DNA of 34,467 nucleotides from Bacteroidaceae bacterium (lineage in GTDB: Bacteria > Bacteroidota > Bacteroidia > Bacteroidales > Bacteroidaceae): the NCBI GenBank assembly GCA_024401225.1, contig JAKSLM010000030.1, positions 1 through 34,467 on the forward strand, in the 5' to 3' direction. Position numbers and translations under genes: made by a program. How positions within the stretch are numbered: position 1 is the first letter of the stretch; every line of letters starts with the position of its first letter. Of the stretch, positions 3,457-15,945 are shown in pieces. Under the pieces are notes generated by a model. The model was given only the letters and a program-made list of their open reading frames with translations, did not search any database and was not told where the DNA came from.

Positions 3457-4621
3457 ACAGCCACAGAGGTATCTGGTTGCCTTCGCCTACGTCGCATTGG
3501 TTGACAGCGAACAGAGTCTTGCTCTTCGACTTGAGCTTGGTGGAATGCTCGGCAATCTTGAATTCCGTCTTTCCATCGATGAGGAACGAGCAGAGGTTGC
3601 CCACCTTGTTTACCTTATGGTCCTTCCAGAGTGTGTTGCAGAAGAAGGTCTCGTGCACATCGTGCTCGTCGAAGTTCTGTGGATAGAATGAGTACATGAG
3701 GTTGGAGTTGTGCAGGAGCACTCGTGCTGGCTTCTTTGGGAATTCGTCGCCCTTGGCGTAGATCATGTTGACGAGTCGAGCCTCCATGAGGTACTTGATG
3801 TAGTGCATTACGGTGGCGCGGCTCATGCCGAGTTCCTGCGCAAGCTGGCTGACGTTAGGCACGCTGCTACCGCTTGTGGTAAGCATGTAGAAGAGCTGCT
3901 TGATCTTTGCCAGATACTTGAGTTCAATCTGCTTGATGAGAAGGATGTCGACCTCTATCATCATGTTCATGTTCTTGAGCAGATTCTCGCTGTAGGTGCC
4001 CTGACCGAGGAAGAATGGATAGAAGCCGTGGTGCAGGTAAGCCTGGAAATGTTCGCGCGGATTGGTCTGTGCGAGGATATCGGTGGCAATCTGCTTATGG
4101 TTCTCGATGATCTCGTCGAGCGAGTATGGCTTCAGTCGGAGTCCGGTCTTCAGGTTGATGAATTCACGGAATGAGAAGCCACGAAGGTTGTATGACTTTA
4201 CGATACCGTTGAGCTCAGGATTCTCTTCCTTCAGGCGCATCACGCTCGAACCGGTAAACACGATGCGGAGCCCTGGGTAGCGGTCGTAACATTCGCGTAG
4301 CTGCTGACTCCAGTCAGGCTGCTTGTATACCTGGTCAATGAGGAGCACCTTTCCTCCGTTGTGATAGAACTCACCTGCAAATTCTGTGATACCAATGTTC
4401 TGTACATAGAAATTGTTCGTATTAATGTACAGGCATGTGTGATCATTTGGCGAGAAATGTTCCTTTGCATACTGAAGCAGGAAAGTGGTTTTGCCCACGC
4501 CTCTGGCTCCCTTGATGCCAATCAAACGGTCTTTCCAGTTGATCTCGTCCATCAGGTCGCGATGTACTGTAGCTGGAAGGTGTTCTACTAAATAAGCATG
4601 TGTCCTAAAGAAGGATTCCAT
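3440..4621 (-). CDS. AAA-family ATPase with C-terminal winged helix (AAA_14-like)
   Basis: A 393-residue stand-alone ATP-binding protein of a type common in Bacteroidetes; the cellular role is not established. A Walker A motif GARGVGKT is at residues 38-45 and a Walker B-like strand KVLLIDQVYK at 91-100. A sensor-1-like strand IVFTGSSVMRL follows. The C-terminal half has a helix-turn-helix (QLAQELGMSRATVMHYIKYL) and the usual tail region. The residue after the Walker B Asp is Gln98, where members of the family I remember usually have Glu, so hydrolysis may be altered. Length is normal for the family. The gene has its own promoter (4701-4732), and no partner gene is adjacent. A toxin-antitoxin or DNA-repair role cannot be inferred. 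Confidence 0.85.
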   Translation of the reverse strand: MESFFRTHAYLVEHLPATVHRDLMDEINWKDRLIGIKGARGVGKTTFLLQYAKEHFSPNDHTCLYINTNNFYVQNIGITEFAGEFYHNGGKVLLIDQVYKQPDWSQQLRECYDRYPGLRIVFTGSSVMRLKEENPELNGIVKSYNLRGFSFREFINLKTGLRLKPYSLDEIIENHKQIATDILAQTNPREHFQAYLHHGFYPFFLGQGTYSENLLKNMNMMIEVDILLIKQIELKYLAKIKQLFYMLTTSGSSVPNVSQLAQELGMSRATVMHYIKYLMEARLVNMIYAKGDEFPKKPARVLLHNSNLMYSFYPQNFDEHDVHETFFCNTLWKDHKVNKVGNLCSFLIDGKTEFKIAEHSTKLKSKSKTLFAVNQCDVGEGNQIPLWLFGFLY

Positions 4622-7503: not shown

Positions 7504-8607
7504 ATGGAACAAGAAATCATATCAAGTGTGCGCTTTCTTGGTATATTGCCAATGTTTGTTGCAGTAGTTTGCCTCATCTTCATCAATCGAGGGAGGAGCA
7601 AATTGCAGTCAGCCATCTATAACCGTTCACGCTGGTTCATCACCGCTGCTACCCTCATACTCGGCATTCAGTTTGCCATACAGTTTGTGGGACAGCTGCG
7701 CGAGCAAAGCGTCACACTCTGCTGGACGCTCAACATGATGGCCTATGTCATCGCCACGCCACTCTACAACATGGCGGAGCTCAACCTGTTGCGTGCCGGT
7801 CACAATATGCGGGGGAGGTACCGGAACAACACTGTCTTCGTCACACTATGCTACATCGTTTTCGCCATCGGCTACCTGACCGACACGCTCATCAACGACC
7901 AGCAACCATGGCTGACGGCAACGTTCGTCGTGGCACTCCTCTATTTCCTCAACCTCCTGGAACTCTCATGGCTACTCTTCCAGGAGATGAAGAAGGCAGA
8001 TACACGCCTGACGGATGAAGAGCTGGCGGAACGTCATAATGTGCTCCGCTATACCGCCCGGGTTATGAAGTGGATCATCCTTGTTTCCCTCTTCTCCCCA
8101 TGGGTGGGCATGTCGTCATCTCTGATGCTCAATGCACTCTACGGCATCGTCATCTTCCCGTTGCTGCTGGTGTTCATCGTTCTGTTCCTGGTCTATGGGG
8201 CTAACATGGCAGAGTGCATCAAGGTAAGCGATGAGATAGCGGAAGCCGTAACTGTGGAGACAGAGAACCAGAACGAGCTGGTTCGCCAGCGCATCGAGCA
8301 GTGGGTCAATGCCCGGAGTTTCACCAATCCGGACATCACCATCAGCGAGGCGCTCCAGGAAATGGGCATTTCGGCCACGGCGCTCAACTTCTACCTCGAG
8401 CAGCACACCCCTGTCGATAACTATCGCCGTTGGCTGCCTTACCTGCGCATCGAAGAAGCGAAGCGCATCATGACCGAACACCCCGAATACACGCTCGAAG
8501 CCATTGCTGCCGACTGCGGCTATGCCAACAAGAGCAGCCTCTCTCATGCCTTCAAGCAGCAGGAAGGCATGACACCAGGGCAGTGGCTCACTAAGCAGAA
8601 GGAATAA
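7504..8607 (+). CDS. Membrane-anchored AraC-family transcriptional regulator
   Basis: A 367-residue protein with an N-terminal half of about six to seven hydrophobic segments, starting near residue 8 and including stretches around 45-62, 112-126, 138-157, 190-205 and 212-233. A C-terminal AraC/XylS DNA-binding domain covers about residues 265-367. The second helix-turn-helix is clear: YTLEAIAADCGYANKSSLSH followed by AFKQQEGMTPGQWL. The ligand is unknown. The hydrophobic part suggests it senses something at the inner membrane. It precedes the four-helix gene and surface-protein cassettes on the same strand, but 9-bp repeat arrays and hairpins separate them, so regulation of these neighbours is only an inference. 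Confidence 0.88.
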   Translation: MEQEIISSVRFLGILPMFVAVVCLIFINRGRSKLQSAIYNRSRWFITAATLILGIQFAIQFVGQLREQSVTLCWTLNMMAYVIATPLYNMAELNLLRAGHNMRGRYRNNTVFVTLCYIVFAIGYLTDTLINDQQPWLTATFVVALLYFLNLLELSWLLFQEMKKADTRLTDEELAERHNVLRYTARVMKWIILVSLFSPWVGMSSSLMLNALYGIVIFPLLLVFIVLFLVYGANMAECIKVSDEIAEAVTVETENQNELVRQRIEQWVNARSFTNPDITISEALQEMGISATALNFYLEQHTPVDNYRRWLPYLRIEEAKRIMTEHPEYTLEAIAADCGYANKSSLSHAFKQQEGMTPGQWLTKQKE

Positions 8608-8697: not shown

Positions 8698-9516
8698 ATG
8701 TATAAAACCACCCCTCCCCACTTAATCCCCAAGGTCTTGAAGAAGCAGGTGCACTGGCAGAACCTTTATTTCTTCCAGAAGTCGGATGTGATCTATCAGA
8801 TGGCATTTGTGTTTTGCGACAGATACATTCATCTTTACAAAGACCGCACCAGGGATCAGGTTATTCAGGCTGCACGCTCCTGCAAGCAGAACATCGTCGA
8901 GGGACTGGCAGACGGCATCACTTCCACCGAGATGCAGATGAAACTGCTCAATGTGGCACGTTCTTCGTTGCAGGAACTCCAACAGGACTTCGAGGACTAC
9001 CTAAAATCACGCCACCTGAAGTTCTGGGGATTACCTCCCAAGCTGAAGAAGGGTGAGACACGAACCATTCCAGAGAGCTATTATGACGGCAATACCGTTC
9101 GCTACGACACCATGCTGAACTACTGTCGTCAGCACAACACGCTTGAGGAGTATGAACCGCTCTTCAAGCAGTGGAATGATGAGGAACTCTGCAACTATGG
9201 CCTCACCCTCTGTCACATGATAGACCGTATGATGATGAGTTTCCTGGAAAAACTGGATGTGGAGTTCGTGACCGAGGGAGGCATAAAGGAAAGGATGTAC
9301 AAAGCTCGCACAGGTTATCGCAGTCAGCAGGACGAGCGTCTGAAACAGCTCGAAGCCGAGCGCCCCATCCTGGAGCAGCAACTGACAGAAGCCCAAGCCG
9401 AAGCCAGCACATGGAAAGCCGCCTACGAAGACCTGAAGCAACGAGCCCTAAAAGCCTACTACACCCAGCAAGAAGAAATAAAAGCCCTGAAAGAAGAACT
9501 AAGCAAGAAAAGCTAA
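8698..9516 (+). CDS. Four-helix-bundle suffix-domain protein with C-terminal coiled coil
   Basis: A 272-residue cytoplasmic protein without signal peptide. Residues about 28-100 resemble the four-helix-bundle family related to proteins of 23S rRNA intervening sequences (Tyr/Phe-rich start, AARSCKQNIVEGLADG, LNVARSSLQELQQDFEDYL). Residues about 105-190 are an extension like the 'four helix bundle suffix' domain I recall from Bacteroidetes. Residues about 205-272 form a charged coiled coil (RLKQLEAERPILEQQLTEAQ). Molecular function is unknown. The gene is framed by TCTAGAACC arrays on both sides and ends with a possible hairpin terminator. No reverse transcriptase or template repeat is nearby, so a diversity-generating retroelement accessory role is not supported. 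Confidence 0.8.
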   Translation: MYKTTPPHLIPKVLKKQVHWQNLYFFQKSDVIYQMAFVFCDRYIHLYKDRTRDQVIQAARSCKQNIVEGLADGITSTEMQMKLLNVARSSLQELQQDFEDYLKSRHLKFWGLPPKLKKGETRTIPESYYDGNTVRYDTMLNYCRQHNTLEEYEPLFKQWNDEELCNYGLTLCHMIDRMMMSFLEKLDVEFVTEGGIKERMYKARTGYRSQQDERLKQLEAERPILEQQLTEAQAEASTWKAAYEDLKQRALKAYYTQQEEIKALKEELSKKS

Positions 9517-9581: not shown

Positions 9582-9619
9582 ATGGCATTGTCATGAATTC
9601 AATTTCATGACAATGCCAT
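9582..9619. terminator. 16-bp perfect hairpin between the four-helix gene and the surface cassette
   Basis: Arms 9582-9597 and 9604-9619 are perfectly complementary around a 6-nt loop (ttcaat). It may act as a terminator for the four-helix gene, although only a weak T run follows. The inner 11 bases of each arm are copies of the TTCATGACAAY motif repeated downstream, so it may equally be part of an operator. Confidence 0.55.
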
Positions 9620-9656
9620 TTCTCGTTCATGACAACACAAGTCAGTTCATGACAAC
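9587..9656. promoter_or_regulatory. Cluster of four TTCATGACAAY sites upstream of surface protein 1
   Basis: Copies are at 9587-9597 (inverted), 9604-9614, 9626-9636 and 9646-9656, with a partial TTCATG at 9663. Direct copies are 22 and 20 bp apart. Each contains the palindrome TCATGA. The cluster ends about 20 bp before the -7 box at 9678, where activator or repressor sites would be expected. Confidence 0.55.
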
Positions 9657-9677
9657 GCCCGTTTCATGCTTTTATAT

Positions 9678-9737: not shown

Positions 9738-12700
9738 ATGAAGAAAACAAGATTTCTACTTTCCGTATTCATGGCGATAGTCATGATGGCGTTGAGCCCG
9801 GCGAAGAGTTGGGCGCAGGATGTTACCATTGGTAACGGAACGTCTGGTGTAAATTATTATCCATATAATAATATTGAGAAAACCAGTTCAAGTGTCATGT
9901 GCTACACATCTGCAGAACTAAGAGGAGGCACGATAACTTCGATTGCATTCCGTGTATGCAGTGCAAGTCAGTTAGCCACAAACTTTGTCAAGGTTTATAT
10001 GGCAGACACGGATATAACCTCTTTGACCACTACACTGGATGTGGCAAGCATCAGCTTCACGGAAGTCTATTCAGGAAATCCCACACTCGGTGCTGCCACT
10101 GGCTGGGAGCCTCTCGCGCTGACCACCTCTTTCAACCATAACAAACAAAAGAATCTGCTTGTTGCTGTTTGTAGAAGTAGCAGTAGATATAATGGTGGTC
10201 TGACATATTATTATCACACTACGGGAACAAACTACTCAATATACTGCGGCGGAAACGATGAAAGTAATGCCGACATCACGTCTTCTACAAATACTTACTA
10301 TGCGTGGAATGGTTGGAGACCTGACACTCGTTTCACTTTTGCACCATGCACAACGCACCAAGGCACATATCACGCGGCAGTAGCACCAAACTGCACCACA
10401 AATGGTACTGTCGCACACTGGCAGTGCGACGTGTGTGGCAAATACTTTAGCGACGAGAATTGTACCAGTGAGCTGGCAAGTATCGTCGATCCTAAACTGG
10501 GTCATGACCTGAATGCAGAAAAATATTGCTCTCGTTGCGAACAGACCATTAATCAGCTTGACGGCACACCGTTTAACCTTGCTAACTATAACAATACAAT
10601 AGATGTATATAGTGACCATTTTGTATCAGGACCAGTTAATCAGCCTTACACAGGCAACCTGATCTTCACAGGCAATGGCAGCCAGATGATTAATCTGAAA
10701 CAAATGCCAGCAAATGGCAAATTCGCACTCCGCGATGCTACCATTACTCTCAACTCACCAGCAATATTCTCCCTAGCTACGGATAATGAGGTGGTCATTG
10801 AAGGTGATGTAAAAATTACAACCAACAATGGCGCACTCTATGGTACTGGCACATCTCCAAACCTTGATGTGACAGGTCCAGGTAATCTTTCCATTAGTGG
10901 TGGAAGCAGTGCAGCGATTGAGAGTTGCTTCAACAATTTGAACATTGACATTGAGGGTGATCTCAAATTAGCTGGTGATGCATTTTTTAGTGGTACCTGT
11001 AATGGTGAAATAAAGGTTAATGCCAAGAGTATCACAGCTAATTGCAACGGTAGTCGACCGTTCTTCTATTATGCATTCAAAGCCACATTGCATGCAAAGG
11101 GAGATATCCTGTTGGAGTCAACATCAACAACGAATGATTCCAATATTTCATATGACAAGATTTGGTGCTTCAAGGGCATAGAGAGCGACGAAGGTACCGT
11201 GCTGATGCGTATGGGTAAGGGCGGAGGCCACGAGAGTGTTGGCGTGAAGGTCGGATATGCTGGTATTCCAGACGTGTCGGATGGAAACTCCTATGTCTCA
11301 GCCTTCACCTGGAAGGTTGTTGACAAGACTACTGGTACTGCTACCTACTATGGAGGCGATCCAAGAAGTTTCGGAGGCATCTCTGGCACTTCGTCTTATG
11401 ACGTCTATCTCAGCCTGGTGAAGGACAGCGAAGGCAACACGGTATTCGACATGGAAAAACTATACAACAGCCCTATCAATCTGTATGATGGTTATTTCAA
11501 AAATGATCAATTCAATAATATCTGCTGGGAGGGTCACCCTGTATTCACAGGAACAGCTAACGGACCTAGGTTCTTGGCATTCAAAGAAACGCTTTCTACT
11601 GCCAATACACCTATCCTTCGTGACCTCACCTTCAACACAGTAAGTTCTTGTCTGCAGGCTCCTGCGGGGATAGACGTTGCGGCAACAATTGATGGCAATG
11701 TGTCTATGTCATGCAGTGATATCGCGATAAATGTAACCAATTCATGCACCATCACAGGTAGCGGTTCGCTCACACTCCGTGGCTCTGGCATGATTTATTC
11801 CTGCCCTGACATGAATATCAACATTACAGGCGACCTGGTAGGTTCTACTACCTCTTCAGGTGCCCCTCTGTATTCCCACAGCTTTGATTTCACTAAGCTC
11901 CAAGCCAACAGCATTACATTCAGGGGCAAGGCGGGCAGTGCCACAGAACATGCTATCATTTTGCCTGTACCAGAAACAACACCTGCAGCTTCTGACCCAA
12001 GCATCACCTACAATGTGAAGGTGGAGAAGAAGAACAGCAACACTGTGTGGAGTGCCGACTATGACATCTTTAGGCCTCTGAGTGTTTTCACAAGTCTTGA
12101 TGGTAATGTCACCGTTTTGGATGGAAACACGTTCGCCAATGAGTTAACACCTCTTGCCCTCTCTGACAACAGCGACCTCGACCTCTCGGCTTATACCGAT
12201 CCTTCCTCATATTTCTATGTGCCAAGTGTAAGCTATGAGCGCACCTTGGGCACTAGCAACTGGGGTACCATCAGAATGCCATTTGAGCTGCGTAGCAACG
12301 CTGATGTGCAATACTATGCCATGACTGCTGTTGATCTCTCTGAAGGCACCATGACAGTTGCTCCTGTCGATGTGGTTTATCCTGGAGTTCCTTGTCTCTT
12401 CAAGCGTCTTACCAGTGGTAATCTCAACCTCAGTAGTGGCAAGACATTGGTGACCAATAAATATACTGATAGATTTTGTTGTGATTACTGGCATTTGAGA
12501 GGTACATACGCAGCATTGAACCTCGATGCCACAACAAGCTCTAATCATTACTACTACATCAACTCCGACCAGTTCTGGCATGCTACAGGCACCGTCGATG
12601 TGAAGCCTTATCGTGCTTACTTTACAGGCGAGGCTCCTGCAAGCTCTGCCAAGTCTCTGACCATCGTGACCGATGATGGCGAGACAACCAGCATTGAGGC

Positions 12701-12827
12701 AGTAATGGACAACGAAGGTAATATCCACGATGCAAGCAACGGCATCTACGATATGCAGGGTCGCAAGCTCAACAGCCTGCAGAAGGGCATCAACATCGTG
12801 AACGGCAAAAAGATTGTAGTAAAATAA
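9738..12827 (+). CDS. Large secreted beta-helix-like surface protein (cassette 1)
   Basis: A 1029-residue exported protein of unknown function. The signal peptide is residues 1-26 with predicted cleavage SWA|Q. About residues 210-275 form a Cys-rich module with CDVCGKYFSDENC and CSRC, of a type I recall from other Bacteroidales surface proteins. Two related Gly/Asn/Thr-rich beta-helix-like regions follow, each opening with an NLxxxxF/Y...FTGxxxG pattern and containing LRDxTxN. Near the end is a WGTIRMPFEL module. The protein closes with IYDMQGRKLNSLQKGINIVN then GKKIVVK, like type IX secretion or sorting tails. The paralogue at 13340 shares the signal peptide and C-terminal modules. A 56-residue peptide gene follows 16 nt after the stop. 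Confidence 0.85.
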   Translation: MKKTRFLLSVFMAIVMMALSPAKSWAQDVTIGNGTSGVNYYPYNNIEKTSSSVMCYTSAELRGGTITSIAFRVCSASQLATNFVKVYMADTDITSLTTTLDVASISFTEVYSGNPTLGAATGWEPLALTTSFNHNKQKNLLVAVCRSSSRYNGGLTYYYHTTGTNYSIYCGGNDESNADITSSTNTYYAWNGWRPDTRFTFAPCTTHQGTYHAAVAPNCTTNGTVAHWQCDVCGKYFSDENCTSELASIVDPKLGHDLNAEKYCSRCEQTINQLDGTPFNLANYNNTIDVYSDHFVSGPVNQPYTGNLIFTGNGSQMINLKQMPANGKFALRDATITLNSPAIFSLATDNEVVIEGDVKITTNNGALYGTGTSPNLDVTGPGNLSISGGSSAAIESCFNNLNIDIEGDLKLAGDAFFSGTCNGEIKVNAKSITANCNGSRPFFYYAFKATLHAKGDILLESTSTTNDSNISYDKIWCFKGIESDEGTVLMRMGKGGGHESVGVKVGYAGIPDVSDGNSYVSAFTWKVVDKTTGTATYYGGDPRSFGGISGTSSYDVYLSLVKDSEGNTVFDMEKLYNSPINLYDGYFKNDQFNNICWEGHPVFTGTANGPRFLAFKETLSTANTPILRDLTFNTVSSCLQAPAGIDVAATIDGNVSMSCSDIAINVTNSCTITGSGSLTLRGSGMIYSCPDMNINITGDLVGSTTSSGAPLYSHSFDFTKLQANSITFRGKAGSATEHAIILPVPETTPAASDPSITYNVKVEKKNSNTVWSADYDIFRPLSVFTSLDGNVTVLDGNTFANELTPLALSDNSDLDLSAYTDPSSYFYVPSVSYERTLGTSNWGTIRMPFELRSNADVQYYAMTAVDLSEGTMTVAPVDVVYPGVPCLFKRLTSGNLNLSSGKTLVTNKYTDRFCCDYWHLRGTYAALNLDATTSSNHYYYINSDQFWHATGTVDVKPYRAYFTGEAPASSAKSLTIVTDDGETTSIEAVMDNEGNIHDASNGIYDMQGRKLNSLQKGINIVNGKKIVVK

Positions 12828-12843
12828 TAAAAGAATAAGCATT

Positions 12844-13014
12844 ATGAAAAAGCAATATATAAAACCAGAACTGATTGTGATTGAAACAGACTCGATCGAA
12901 GATGTTCTCTTGGTAACCAGTCCTGGCCCTGGCTATGGTGGCGATGATGGAGGTAGCGGAGCTGCCGAATCTAAGTTCCGCAACTGGGGATGGGAAGAAC
13001 TGGAAGACTGGTAA
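12844..13014 (+). CDS. Small Gly-rich acidic-tail peptide (cassette 1)
   Basis: A 56-residue peptide starting MKKQYIKPELIVIE. The N-terminal half has alternating hydrophobic residues (ELIVIETD...DVLLVTS). A flexible Gly-rich middle SPGPGYGGDDGGSGAAES follows, then an aromatic/acidic end WGWEELEDW. The partner at 15588 has the same architecture (K-x-YI-x-P, D-x-LLV-x-S, GPG/GG, AKE or AAE). It lies 16 nt downstream of the large surface protein and before a strong hairpin, so the two are probably cotranscribed. Similar short peptides are frequent in Bacteroidetes, but I know no function. It has no classical signal peptide, and no RiPP maturation enzyme is nearby. Confidence 0.8.
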   Translation: MKKQYIKPELIVIETDSIEDVLLVTSPGPGYGGDDGGSGAAESKFRNWGWEELEDW

Positions 13015-13024
13015 CAACCGTAAT

Positions 13025-13070
13025 GGGGCAGGTTGCATTGACCCATGATTGGGTCAATGCGACTTGCCCC
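13025..13070 (+). terminator. 21-bp hairpin ending surface cassette 1
   Basis: Arms 13025-13045 and 13050-13070 pair over 21 positions with two G-U wobbles around a 4-nt loop. The stem starts 10 nt after the peptide stop. The following T run is weak (tatcctt), but the stem is long and GC-rich. Confidence 0.75.
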
Positions 13071-13081
13071 TATCCTTCAAT

Positions 13082-13299
13082 TGGTAATAGTAACTCTCAG
13101 GTACCTCCCAAATATTTAATTTTTTAACGTGAATGTCCGTGAACCTTTAGCTCGGCGTAGCCAATTGCCCGTGAATTATTTCGTGAATTTAATTTTGTTC
13201 AAGAGTTATACCAATTTACGAACAAATTCACGGGCAATTCACGGGCATTCACGTTCGCCGAAGGCAAAAACAAAGATACCTGAGTCGTTACTGGTAATA
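13082..13299. mobile_element. 202-bp MITE-like palindromic element with 8-bp target duplications
   Basis: The element 13090-13291 is flanked by direct repeats TGGTAATA (13082-13089 and 13292-13299). The ends are inverted: GTAACTCTCAGGTACC on the left and, read from the right, GTAACGACTCAGGTATC. Internally 13126-13143 pairs with 13238-13255, and 13163-13177 pairs perfectly with 13225-13239, both built on CCCGTGAATT-like units. There is no coding capacity. It fits a non-autonomous insertion. It fills the gap between cassette 1 and surface protein 2. Confidence 0.75.
13165..13197 (+). promoter_or_regulatory. Possible outward promoter inside the MITE-like element
   Basis: TTG (13165-13167), a 22-nt spacer and TAATTTTG (13190-13197) point toward surface protein 2 at 13340. 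No other TAnnTTTG box is seen between 13198 and the start. The spacer is slightly long, so this is tentative. Confidence 0.3.
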
Positions 13300-13339
13300 A
13301 GATAGATTATAAATAATATCAAATAAAAGCGAAAAAAAA

Positions 13340-15583
13340 ATGAAAAAAACAAGATTCCTTTTCTCGCTACTCATGGCAGTGGCCATAATAGCTTTTGGCC
13401 CGACGAGGGCATGGGCGCAGGAACCGACTCAGATACCTGTAATCACAGAAGGTAATGGTAATACCTACACTTTCAATGTAGGCAACGAACCTTCTGAAGA
13501 ACCAGTAGTCGTTAGACTCCCTTGCGATCTTACTTTGCCTGATGGCAAGGAAATACTAATCAATGGCGAAAATATCATCCTCGACCTCAATGGCAAGACC
13601 ATCAGCGGTAATACTACAGGTCAGACAATCTACCTCACCGAAGGTTCACTCACCATCACAGACAATAGTACGACAAAGACCGGAAAGATTGTGAATGTGA
13701 GTCACTCTGGTTTTGGATATGCATTGATGGCTGATGGTGGTACCCTCACCATACATGGTGGTACATTCGAAAGTGAAAGTACTAATGCTCTCTATGTATA
13801 TGGAATATGGGGCGCAACTGCTATTATAGACGGCGGACGATTTACCTCTAAACACGAAGGAACCTCTGGTGTGTACGTGTACCCTGACATATCTGCTCTG
13901 GCGATGAACTATTCTTATTACGATGCATCCGAAACAGAGTTGGAGGCTCCTGAAAATGGTCCTGTCAAAGATGCGAATGGTGCCCCAGTCAGTGATATCA
14001 TCGTTATGCCTGCCGTAAAATATGTCATCAGCATAACAATGGAGACCTATGATAGTGATAACGAGTTGATAGACACACAGTATTTCATAACTTTGGATAA
14101 AGCTCTCAAAGCTATCAATGAAAGTGGAGCAAGCAGTAAAACTTTCGTAATCACCCTGGATAAGGATCAGGTAGTAAGTGGTTTTCCTGATTTGTACTAC
14201 AATGATATCATCTTGGACCTCAATAATCACACTGTTGACGGAACGTTTGAAGATTCCGAAGTTACCAAATATCACACTTTGGAAGCTAAGGGCAATCTGA
14301 CCGTCAAGAACGGTACCTTGATGGCATCAATCAATGGAACTGGCAACATCAACGTGTGTACCATCGACAATGCTACCGTTGTCGGAAGTTACATAAGCTG
14401 GCAGGCAGTTGCTGGCCTCGACATCAAGAACGGATCAACCTTCGAAATCAATAATACTGAAGGAAGCGGTATGTTCACAATCGAATCTTGTGAGCTCGAT
14501 GCTACCTCTAAGATCGTTCTTACAGGTGTTAATTCTATAGGTATGTACGGTAACGAGAATGGTGGTTACCGCAACGTAATGCATCGTCTGACTGTACCTG
14601 AAGGATATGAGGTCAAAAGGGAGAAGCAGTTGAATCAGTCCTCGCCTGACAAGAAGTTTAGATTCTGCAAGGTTGGCGAGGTCGATGAAGATGGTAATCC
14701 TGTTGTAGCTGATATGACAGGTGTCACTATGACTATCCTTGGTTCAACCCCACTCACACCATGCACGTTGGCTTATATCAAGGATGATAATCCAGAAAGC
14801 AGAGAGGACTATGTGCATCTGTGCGCAACTTGCTACTATGAGGATGTGACAGGTCGAATAAAGTACAACGATGCTAATGAGGCATTCTATACATGCAAGC
14901 ATTTCAAACTCAACGAAACAGAAGGTTTGCCACCAGTTGAGATCAAGAATGCTGATCTGGCAACGTACGGTCGTGAGATCACAGTGGGATGGGGTACACT
15001 CTGTCTGCCTTTCGAACTCACAGTGGGCGCTTCGGATCCTCACAGCTACTACACCTTCACAGCTGTCAATGCTGATTGTATCACTCTGAGCCAGATAGAG
15101 GACAAGGTTCCTGCTGGACATGCTGTGTTTGTGATGCCTGCAGAAGGCGAAGAGAGTGTATCGCTCAGCGCTACTAATGTGAAGGTATGGAAGGACATTG
15201 CAGAAACCACTGGTCCATCAGCCGATGGCATGACTTTGAAGGGTACTGTGAAACCAACAACAGCAACCTCAGGCTACTACCTCGATGCAACTGACGGATT
15301 CCTCTACAACATTGCCATCTATTGCAGCGAAAGCCATAATGAAAATATCAAGGTGCCAGCATTCAGAGCATGGCTCGATGGTAGCATCAATCCTTTGGCA
15401 TCAGCTCGCCTGCGCATCACTACTGGTGATGAGGATGCAACAGCAATCGAAGCTGTCTCTGCTATGTCGGAGGGTAATGTGGAGTTCTACGACTTGAACG
15501 GCCGACGCATCAACTCGCTCCAGAAGGGTGTGAACATCATGAAGTTTGCTAATGGTAAATCAATCAAGGTAAACGTAAAGTAA
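13340..15583 (+). CDS. Secreted beta-helix-like surface protein (cassette 2)
   Basis: A 747-residue exported protein. Signal peptide residues 1-26 (MKKTRFLFSLLMAVAIIAFG then PTRAWA|Q) nearly match that of the 9738 protein, also at nucleotide level. Two pectate-lyase-like beta-helix stretches are visible: one begins near ILDLNGKTISG with LTITDN and GGTLTIHGGTF, and one near IILDLNNHTVDGTF with LTVKNGTL. Then come a Cys-containing segment HLCATCYYE, a WGTLCLPFEL module shared with its paralogue, and the tail FYDLNGRRINSLQKGVNIM then KFANGKSIKVNVK, which resembles a sorting tail. Substrate or ligand is unknown. The next gene starts 4 nt after the stop, implying translational linkage. Confidence 0.85.
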   Translation: MKKTRFLFSLLMAVAIIAFGPTRAWAQEPTQIPVITEGNGNTYTFNVGNEPSEEPVVVRLPCDLTLPDGKEILINGENIILDLNGKTISGNTTGQTIYLTEGSLTITDNSTTKTGKIVNVSHSGFGYALMADGGTLTIHGGTFESESTNALYVYGIWGATAIIDGGRFTSKHEGTSGVYVYPDISALAMNYSYYDASETELEAPENGPVKDANGAPVSDIIVMPAVKYVISITMETYDSDNELIDTQYFITLDKALKAINESGASSKTFVITLDKDQVVSGFPDLYYNDIILDLNNHTVDGTFEDSEVTKYHTLEAKGNLTVKNGTLMASINGTGNINVCTIDNATVVGSYISWQAVAGLDIKNGSTFEINNTEGSGMFTIESCELDATSKIVLTGVNSIGMYGNENGGYRNVMHRLTVPEGYEVKREKQLNQSSPDKKFRFCKVGEVDEDGNPVVADMTGVTMTILGSTPLTPCTLAYIKDDNPESREDYVHLCATCYYEDVTGRIKYNDANEAFYTCKHFKLNETEGLPPVEIKNADLATYGREITVGWGTLCLPFELTVGASDPHSYYTFTAVNADCITLSQIEDKVPAGHAVFVMPAEGEESVSLSATNVKVWKDIAETTGPSADGMTLKGTVKPTTATSGYYLDATDGFLYNIAIYCSESHNENIKVPAFRAWLDGSINPLASARLRITTGDEDATAIEAVSAMSEGNVEFYDLNGRRINSLQKGVNIMKFANGKSIKVNVK

Positions 15584-15587
15584 GATT

Positions 15588-15752
15588 ATGGAAAAGAAAA
15601 TATATATTACTCCACACATCGAGGTGATAACCGTAGATGAGGACATGCTCCTCGTTGGTAGTTTCGGTCCAGGTGGAGGCTCAGGCTCCGTTGGTGCCAA
15701 GGAACTGGATTTTGATGATGACGACGAGGTCCTGTTCGACATCTTCGAATAA
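15588..15752 (+). CDS. Small Gly-rich acidic-tail peptide (cassette 2)
   Basis: A 54-residue peptide starting MEKKIYITPHIEVITVDEDM, then LLVGSFGPGGGSGSVGAKEL, ending in a very acidic stretch DFDDDDEVLFDIFE. It is homologous in layout to the 56-residue peptide at 12844. The start lies only 4 nt after the stop of surface protein 2. There is no signal peptide and no Cys. The acidic tail could bind cations or a basic partner, but that is speculation. It is too short for many gene callers and may be missing from public annotations. Confidence 0.8.
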   Translation: MEKKIYITPHIEVITVDEDMLLVGSFGPGGGSGSVGAKELDFDDDDEVLFDIFE

Positions 15753-15760
15753 AACAAGTG

Positions 15761-15815
15761 TCTTATGGGCAGCTACGTTGATCCAATCATGGAGCAAGAC
15801 GAACTGTCCATAAGA
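15761..15815 (+). terminator. Weak hairpin after cassette 2
   Basis: TCTTATGGGCAG (15761-15772) pairs with CTGTCCATAAGA (15804-15815) with one G-U wobble, around a 31-nt loop, 8 nt after the peptide stop. The large loop and absence of a T run make it tentative. Confidence 0.35.
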
Positions 15816-15883
15816 CCTCCTAAGTGGAAAAAGTGGACTTATAGCACTATTCTGAAAACATTTGTTTTTCTAATGCTAACAAA

Positions 15884-15915
15884 TAACGGGTTTGTGAAAT
15901 GAATCACAAACCCGT
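15884..15915. terminator. Bidirectional terminator between cassette 2 and carB
   Basis: Perfect 13-bp stem 15884-15896/15903-15915 (aacgggtttgtga and its complement) with a 6-nt loop. It lies 30 nt beyond the carB stop on the minus strand, with a T-rich run (ATTTGTT) following in that direction. Confidence 0.8.
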
Positions 15916-15945
15916 TGTTGTCTTTATCGTTAGGACGCTATGTGC

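Follow-up and report, generated by a model that had tools for sequence, protein, structure and literature searches.

Short YxxP-leader peptides encoded behind exported proteins of Bacteroidales: candidate LPP-like precursors

Introduction

The Linear Polyphosphorylated Peptides (LPP) of Bacillota are ribosomally synthesised and post-translationally modified peptides (RiPPs) whose genes come with those of a signal peptidase I (SpI), a RiPP recognition element (RRE), an HprK-like kinase, a nucleoside triphosphate (NTP) transferase and an MsbA-like transporter. According to the paper describing them (PMC13381572), the precursors are 35-200 aa long with a leader of the form YxxPxVLxHQxIxFETxxS, several phosphates are placed on Ser3 of the core, and cleavage by SpI is RRE-dependent. 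Residues D70 and N33 of the RRE LppB fix the Tyr and the Pro of the leader. LPP genes are often found in capsule loci; the function of the products is said there to be unknown, and their distribution to be restricted to Bacillota (PMC13381572). Here we report on short peptides with a comparable leader, encoded by two neighbouring two-gene units (positions 9738-15752) in a stretch of 34,467 nucleotides from a Bacteroidaceae bacterium (contig JAKSLM010000030.1 of assembly GCA_024401225.1), called the window below.

Each unit consists of a gene for a large exported protein followed by a gene for a peptide of 56 or 54 residues. From the spread of the peptide family, its placement and its co-occurrence with a set of maturation genes, we conclude that such a unit probably encodes a surface protein together with a co-transcribed precursor of an LPP-like RiPP, which would be matured in trans.

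Results

Two units with matching ends

Both units lie on the plus strand. Unit 1 opens with a protein of 1029 aa (9738..12827), whose N-terminus resembles a signal peptide (MKKTRF..., 26 residues by eye, 9738..9815) and whose last ~200 residues, delimited by BLASTP and profile (12228..12824), form a domain composed of a WGTxxxPFEL module and a YDMQGRK...KGINIVNGKKIVVK tail. Sixteen nt further on comes peptide gene 1 (12844..13014, 56 aa), a predicted precursor with its YxxP motif encoded at 12856-12867 and a conserved Ser codon at 12919-12921, the 22nd residue from the Tyr. The layout recurs in unit 2: a protein of 747 aa (13340..15583; signal-peptide-like N-terminus at 13340..13417, again 26 residues by eye; C-terminal domain of ~207 aa at 14960..15580), then, after 4 nt, peptide gene 2 (15588..15752, 54 aa), also a predicted precursor, with YxxP at 15603-15614 and a conserved Ser codon at 15660-15662, the 20th residue from the Tyr.

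An earlier description of this DNA, made from the letters alone (the sequence-only reading), had given these open reading frames (ORFs) as above and called the region a duplicated cassette with near-identical signal peptides, diverged bodies and kept ends. BLASTP agreed as to the ends and bodies: proteins 1 and 2 matched over their first ~50 residues (E 8e-9) and, with 31% identity, over their last ~200 (E 3e-16), and no meaningful match was found between the bodies. The units thus have the same ends and the same kind of partner, but they are not a recent tandem copy. The conserved layout claimed for the peptides was also recovered, as the two align end to end and 27 columns are invariant, most evidently at the N-terminal start. 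The beta-helix fold proposed for the large proteins found no support: Pfam and NCBIfam searches with the four window products gave nothing above cut-off, the best peptide match being NF050043 (E 0.046).

A hairpin stands behind each peptide gene. The first has a 21-bp stem (13025..13070, plus strand, inverted repeat I3; -42.7 kcal/mol, z -8.8), begins 11 nt past peptide gene 1 and is not followed by a T run; it is a possible terminator or 3' end. The second (15882..15919, plus strand, inverted repeat I7; -23.7 kcal/mol, z -7.4) begins 130 nt past peptide gene 2, between this gene and a convergent carB-like ORF, and is likely a terminator; a weaker fold (15760-15830; -30.2 kcal/mol, z -5.1) precedes it. 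That a hairpin follows each peptide gene agrees with the peptide gene closing its unit. Each unit would be a two-gene operon.

A peptide family with a conserved start

Further copies of the peptide were found in the genome that carries the window (3.0 Mb in 105 contigs, 84% complete). A search with peptide 1 detected them after other exported proteins, and a four-row peptide profile had 7 matches there (E<=1). With the same profile at E<=1e-3, 29 of the 45 genomes of the genus, the window's own included, were positive (76 matches listed, 7 of them in the own genome). DNA was fetched for 61 of the 69 matches outside the own genome (8 unfetched), which together with the own loci yielded 70 peptide ORFs at E<=0.01, 2 of which are not in the list of 76. 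A profile of 51 rows, all from the window's genus (A4), produced 8, 12, 9, 9 and 6 matches at E<=0.1 in genomes G000, G002, G029, G030 and G041 respectively, some of them marginal or at contig ends. The family spans 6 families of an order-wide sample of 295 genomes.

All 70 peptides have the Y..P pattern, which was partly built into the search. Counting from the Tyr, residue 20 is a Ser in 62 of the 70, and in all of them a Ser lies within positions 19-22; the part beyond position 20 is net negative in 70/70. The cores diverge fast. Over 13 related peptide pairs, which were chosen by eye and are not all independent, the pooled pN/pS was 0.48, with dN slightly above dS in one pair. These figures speak for moderate, not strong, purifying selection on the peptide reading frame, and the Ka/Ks near 1 that the sequence-only reading had named as evidence against a functional pair was not seen. 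That the peptides are a product of chance or of ORF calling is next to negligible as an explanation: they are short, and many are individually weak matches (E near 1e-4 with the four-row profile), but they combine purifying selection with a recurrent position, hairpin ends and a spread over 6 families.

Searches against known small-protein families gave single weak matches and nothing above cut-off. Among open-licence PMC papers, judged by title and abstract, none joined such peptides with surface proteins or with the type IX secretion system (T9SS).

Two variants of gene arrangement were noticed. At L073, two tandem peptide genes (4061-4186 and 4386-4541) stand behind one tail protein, and a like pair was found in G155 (C28:42799-43133). 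At L344:5445-6557, in G289, a YxxP peptide shares one open frame of 370 aa with a lipoprotein-like sequence, either as a fusion or through a missing stop.

The upstream proteins and their C-terminal domain

An upstream ORF, defined as one of >=100 aa on the same strand ending <=400 nt before the peptide, was present for 58 of the 70 peptides; the other 12 are at contig ends, precede a lipoprotein gene or have other arrangements. To limit circularity, a tail profile was built from 42 tails without a peptide (own genome and G030), these tails having first been chosen with a peptide-associated profile, A3. Of the 58 upstream ORFs the new profile matched 50, compared to 4 of the 153 other ORFs of >=200 aa in the same DNA (Fisher p 5e-35). 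The 8 misses comprise 2 variant tails (L008, L043), 2 tails visible by eye (L057, L099) and 4 proteins without a tail. A3 itself matched the tail of protein 1 at 1.6e-20, this row being part of the profile. The functional unit of protein and peptide proposed earlier is thereby supported, and peptide genes mostly lacking such an upstream protein, the other result named as adverse, were not what was seen. The stricter expectation that the peptide always follows an MKKTRF signal and a KGxNI tail held as to the tail; MKKTRF and the exact KGxNI proved to be local variants of a looser pattern.

The association extends beyond this genus, and is not uniform. In genus g113 of family f111 a tail protein was directly upstream at 11 of the 15 fetched loci; for the 21 peptides of G155, where only 22 tails were scored, the count was at least 13. 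Each of the 9 peptide matches of G030 lies directly behind a listed tail. A minority class has the peptide ahead of a lipoprotein-like gene (L012, L013, L046, L059 and L081), as do all 5 loci of G099 (family f56). At L268 (minus strand) and L269, peptides stand behind proteins that by eye end in dockerin-like repeats, not in the tail.

Ten upstream proteins were scanned for families: two are C10 peptidases, one is a BspA-type leucine-rich repeat (LRR) protein and seven have no family. The idea that the peptide inhibits C10 proteases was dropped, since the same peptides are also found behind the LRR protein and behind unknowns.

The tail is the end of a C-terminal domain of ~190 aa (WGTxCLPF... 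plus tail), matched by 191 ORFs in the fetched DNA, or 118 after dropping repeats and partials, some genes having been fetched more than once. The protein 2 member has no Pfam family above cut-off, and single other members gave scattered weak matches. The AlphaFold2 model of the protein 2 domain (mean pLDDT 83) consists almost entirely of beta structure, has a C-terminal sheet that stands apart, and found no match in the PDB at E<=0.001. The domain, which belongs to exported proteins of Bacteroidales, is apparently unannotated.

In being exported and ending in a conserved tail, these proteins recall T9SS cargo. SprA, the T9SS part searched for, is present in the own genome (SprA_N PF14349, 1.8e-207) and in 277 of the 295 genomes of the order; all 47 genomes with tails are SprA-positive, a weak excess (p 0.04). 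The type A sorting domain was rare among 45 tails at E<=0.1 (TIGR04183 in 3, best 0.0033; PF18962 in 1), and neither model was among the families of the window proteins at E<=1; these searches covered type A only, type C not being tested.

Close placement behind tail proteins (50/58 against 4/153) and the presence of SprA wherever tails occur are what one would expect if the peptide were an unmodified partner of the upstream protein, an export chaperone or adaptor or a regulator of its expression, its likeness to a RiPP leader being convergent. We consider this unlikely. The same family stands ahead of lipoprotein-like genes, G302 has peptides and no SprA match, and 28 of 32 listed tails of the own genome have no peptide; an unmodified partner would also leave unexplained the co-occurrence with RRE, kinase and peptidase genes reported below. 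The role in secretion suggested by the sequence-only reading is not where the wider evidence (YxxP leader, module, placement ahead of lipoproteins) points.

A candidate maturation module

The peptide leader is reminiscent of lasso leaders, a likeness that weak matches bear out, and an RRE was looked for on that account. PqqD (PF05402) was over cut-off in 6 of the 7 peptide genomes searched (1.1e-14 in the own genome), including 5/5 genus genomes and G155, which has 21 peptide matches. The RRE of the own genome (L292:14303-14569; C1:96311) lies outside the window, is the only one of PqqD type found there, and adjoins a 154-aa S24/signal-peptidase-I-like protein and a 304-aa HprK-related protein. 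The peptidase matched S24 (PF00717) at 4.5e-5, just over cut-off; matches to signal peptidase I TIGR02228 (2.6e-5 and 6.7e-9) and to HprK_rel_A (3.2e-6 and 1.6e-9) were below the curated cut-offs. Ser and His of the peptidase are invariant, with a spacing near-equal to that of LppS. The best matches of the kinase model (pLDDT 92), over part of its length, were PEPCK structures, followed by HPr kinases. A C11 clostripain-family gene (L292:16025-17317) also adjoins this module, and similar-looking genes were seen there by eye in relatives.

Twenty further regions were fetched, 17 of them around the kinase, which 38 genomes of the order have, and in 15 of these 17 kinase, peptidase and RRE were found together. 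Candidates scanned in other genomes contained NTP_transf_5 (6/6) and ABC exporters (3/3). The neighbours of three modules were scanned: polysaccharide export and glycosyltransferase genes surround those of G302 and G131, and beside that of G321 there are genes for a glycosyltransferase and for a glycogen-synthase-like protein. YxxP peptides were present in or beside the modules of G134, G302, G063, G274 and the second module of G002, and, more weakly, of G157. The gene after the module peptide starts lipoprotein-like in G274, G302, G002 and G157.

A module might serve only the peptides in or beside it, the dispersed ones being relics or re-used for another purpose. Fast divergence of the cores would agree with this, as would the own-genome module, next to which neither an exporter nor an NTP transferase was recognised. 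Against it, the dispersed copies keep their frame (pooled pN/pS 0.48), with YxxP and Ser near-invariant, and PqqD is present in all 5 genus genomes searched and in G155, if not in G337. We regard this explanation as quite improbable.

Co-occurrence of peptides and module

Association was measured over the 295 genomes of the order, of which 38 were positive with a six-row kinase profile at E<=1e-10 and 9 with A4 at E<=1e-3. The HprK-like kinase was found in 8 of the 9 peptide-positive genomes, compared to 30 of the 286 others (Fisher p 3.1e-7). G000 and G155 contribute rows to the kinase and peptide profiles and are also counted as positives; leaving them out gives 6 of 7 peptide genomes with the kinase (p 1.5e-5), and leaving out G000 together with the whole of genus g113 gives 5 of 5 (p 1.9e-5). 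Counted per family, the figures are 6/6 against 19/114 (p 4.8e-5), and 4/4 when families f1 and f111 are left out (p 0.001). A YxxP leader, together with co-occurrence with a module of RRE, HprK-like kinase and SipW-like peptidase, suggests that the peptide is the precursor of a modified peptide.

Relation to LPP and lasso RREs

Against the PDB, the best matches of an RRE profile were RREs of lasso peptides and LPP (6jx3, 2.7e-4; 9x8z, 0.012). LppB residues D70 and N33 (D88 and N51 of the 9x8z chain, offset 18) align to D73 and N35, both invariant in 5 RREs.

The YxxP leader and the PqqD-type RRE would also suit a paeninodin-like lasso precursor, and one of the 51 peptides matches the paeninodin model, at E 0.078. 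The lasso leader peptidase B2 (PF13471) was over cut-off in none of the 7 peptide genomes (weak matches in 3, E 0.002-0.007), and the cores, by eye, have no fixed Asp or Glu for ring closure. On the PF13471 result the lasso precursor was set aside, the lasso cyclase not having been searched for; we hold it to be very improbable.

Surroundings of the two units

Between the units, a long imperfect inverted repeat (13126-13261; -63.5 kcal/mol, z -10.3) is perhaps a mobile or attenuator-like element ahead of unit 2. Nested inverted repeats (9582-9659; 16 nt perfect, and arms of 21 nt) lie 5' of unit 1. Further upstream, a gene for a four-helix-bundle protein with suffix domain (8698-9516; TIGR04258, 1.3e-18) adjoins an AraC-type regulator gene (7504-8607). 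The Bacteroides-type promoter pattern was uninformative, with 4 matches for 2.45 expected and none near the unit starts. The carB site was compared over 80 carB loci (flanks <=10 kb, many shorter), which contained 4 tails and one weak peptide-like ORF; a conserved cassette was not seen there.

Discussion

The sequence of events that we propose is the following. The N-terminal ~25 residues of the peptide (MKKxYIxPxxExVxxxxxxxIIxxS) would act as a leader, whose YxxP would dock in trans on the one PqqD-type RRE found in the genome. The HprK-like kinase encoded next to it would then, most likely, phosphorylate the near-invariant Ser. The leader would be removed by the SipW/S24-like serine peptidase, also a neighbour, which would release an acidic, often Gly-rich core. 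The product may be exported, and may act at the surface with its co-encoded protein. A wider version of this scheme, in which RRE, kinase and peptidase form a central hub serving scattered precursors in trans, such that each surface protein or lipoprotein is delivered with its own phosphorylated companion peptide, is put forward only tentatively, as we find it rather doubtful. If such a one-peptide-per-surface-protein system exists, it would perhaps serve to anchor, tag or mask the protein or the capsule.

A number of results weigh against this scheme of maturation. A tail protein need not have a peptide: of the 49 tails of the own genome 32 were listed, and a peptide stands behind 4 of these and behind none of the remaining 28, all of which were fetched; in G030 the count is 9 of 37 listed tails (53 in all), with no peptide at the 12 fetched of the remaining 28. 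Peptide and module also part company in places. G337 (89% complete) has 6 peptide matches and no match to the HprK-like kinase or to PqqD, 30 genomes of the order have the kinase with no peptide detected, the peptides found in G129 and G289 are not near a kinase, and in G099 peptide and kinase are on different contigs. A motif scan of 24 module regions (329 kb) returned 4 matches, 3 plausible and 1 plainly spurious; the same scan of the carB regions (1487 kb) returned 2, neither plausible by eye. Beside the own-genome module, no NTP transferase, ABC exporter or peptide was recognised by eye, this region not being scanned. Within the peptidase, the Asp of the triad is only tentatively assigned, at 15 residues past the His compared to 25 in LppS. 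Finally, a lasso RRE outscores LppB with the RRE profile (24.0 bits for TfuB1, 18.8 for LppB, 18.6 for PbaB1 and 17.6 for TbiB1).

Were the proposal of an LPP-like precursor matured in trans correct, the LPP type of RiPP would be carried from Bacillota to Bacteroidales, and there would be a hypothesis of function for a recurrent class of small, unannotated proteins in Bacteroidales of rumen and gut type. One module acting on scattered precursors is an arrangement not described for LPP in the available part of PMC13381572.

Three described systems can be compared with these loci. With T9SS cargo (PMC10202324) the tail proteins share export, a conserved C-terminal tail and a genome encoding SprA; they differ in that the tails mostly lack TIGR04183 and PF18962, and in that the modelled domain is without a PDB match at the threshold used. 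With paeninodin-like lasso peptides (PMC13381572, PMC7533575) the peptides share a [Y/W]xxP leader, a PqqD-type RRE, an HprK-like kinase and a nucleotidyltransferase, but the peptidase is SpI-like and no fixed ring residues were seen in the cores.

The third system, LPP (PMC13381572), differs first in its hosts, given there as Bacillota only, whereas the window belongs to Bacteroidales, as its carB relatives show. The precursors described here, several per genome, are mostly dispersed with surface proteins and not in a cluster. The full leader motif is not found, a further point against our proposal: HQ and FET are missing, and the Ser is at position 20 from the Tyr, not 19. Because the leader motif is recovered only in part, the peptides are, on their sequences, LPP-like and not LPP. 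The likenesses are nevertheless several. Both have short precursors with a conserved N-terminus, a variable C-terminus, a YxxP leader and a Ser downstream, and both have a discrete PqqD-type RRE and an HprK-like kinase; the peptidase found here is a candidate for an archaeal-type (SipW-like) signal peptidase. In other genomes than the own one, an NTP transferase and an ABC exporter lie near several of the Bacteroidales modules, and two modules are placed among polysaccharide genes. This polysaccharide setting, together with the pairing with surface proteins and lipoproteins, makes the role of LPP, which the same paper says is unknown, testable.

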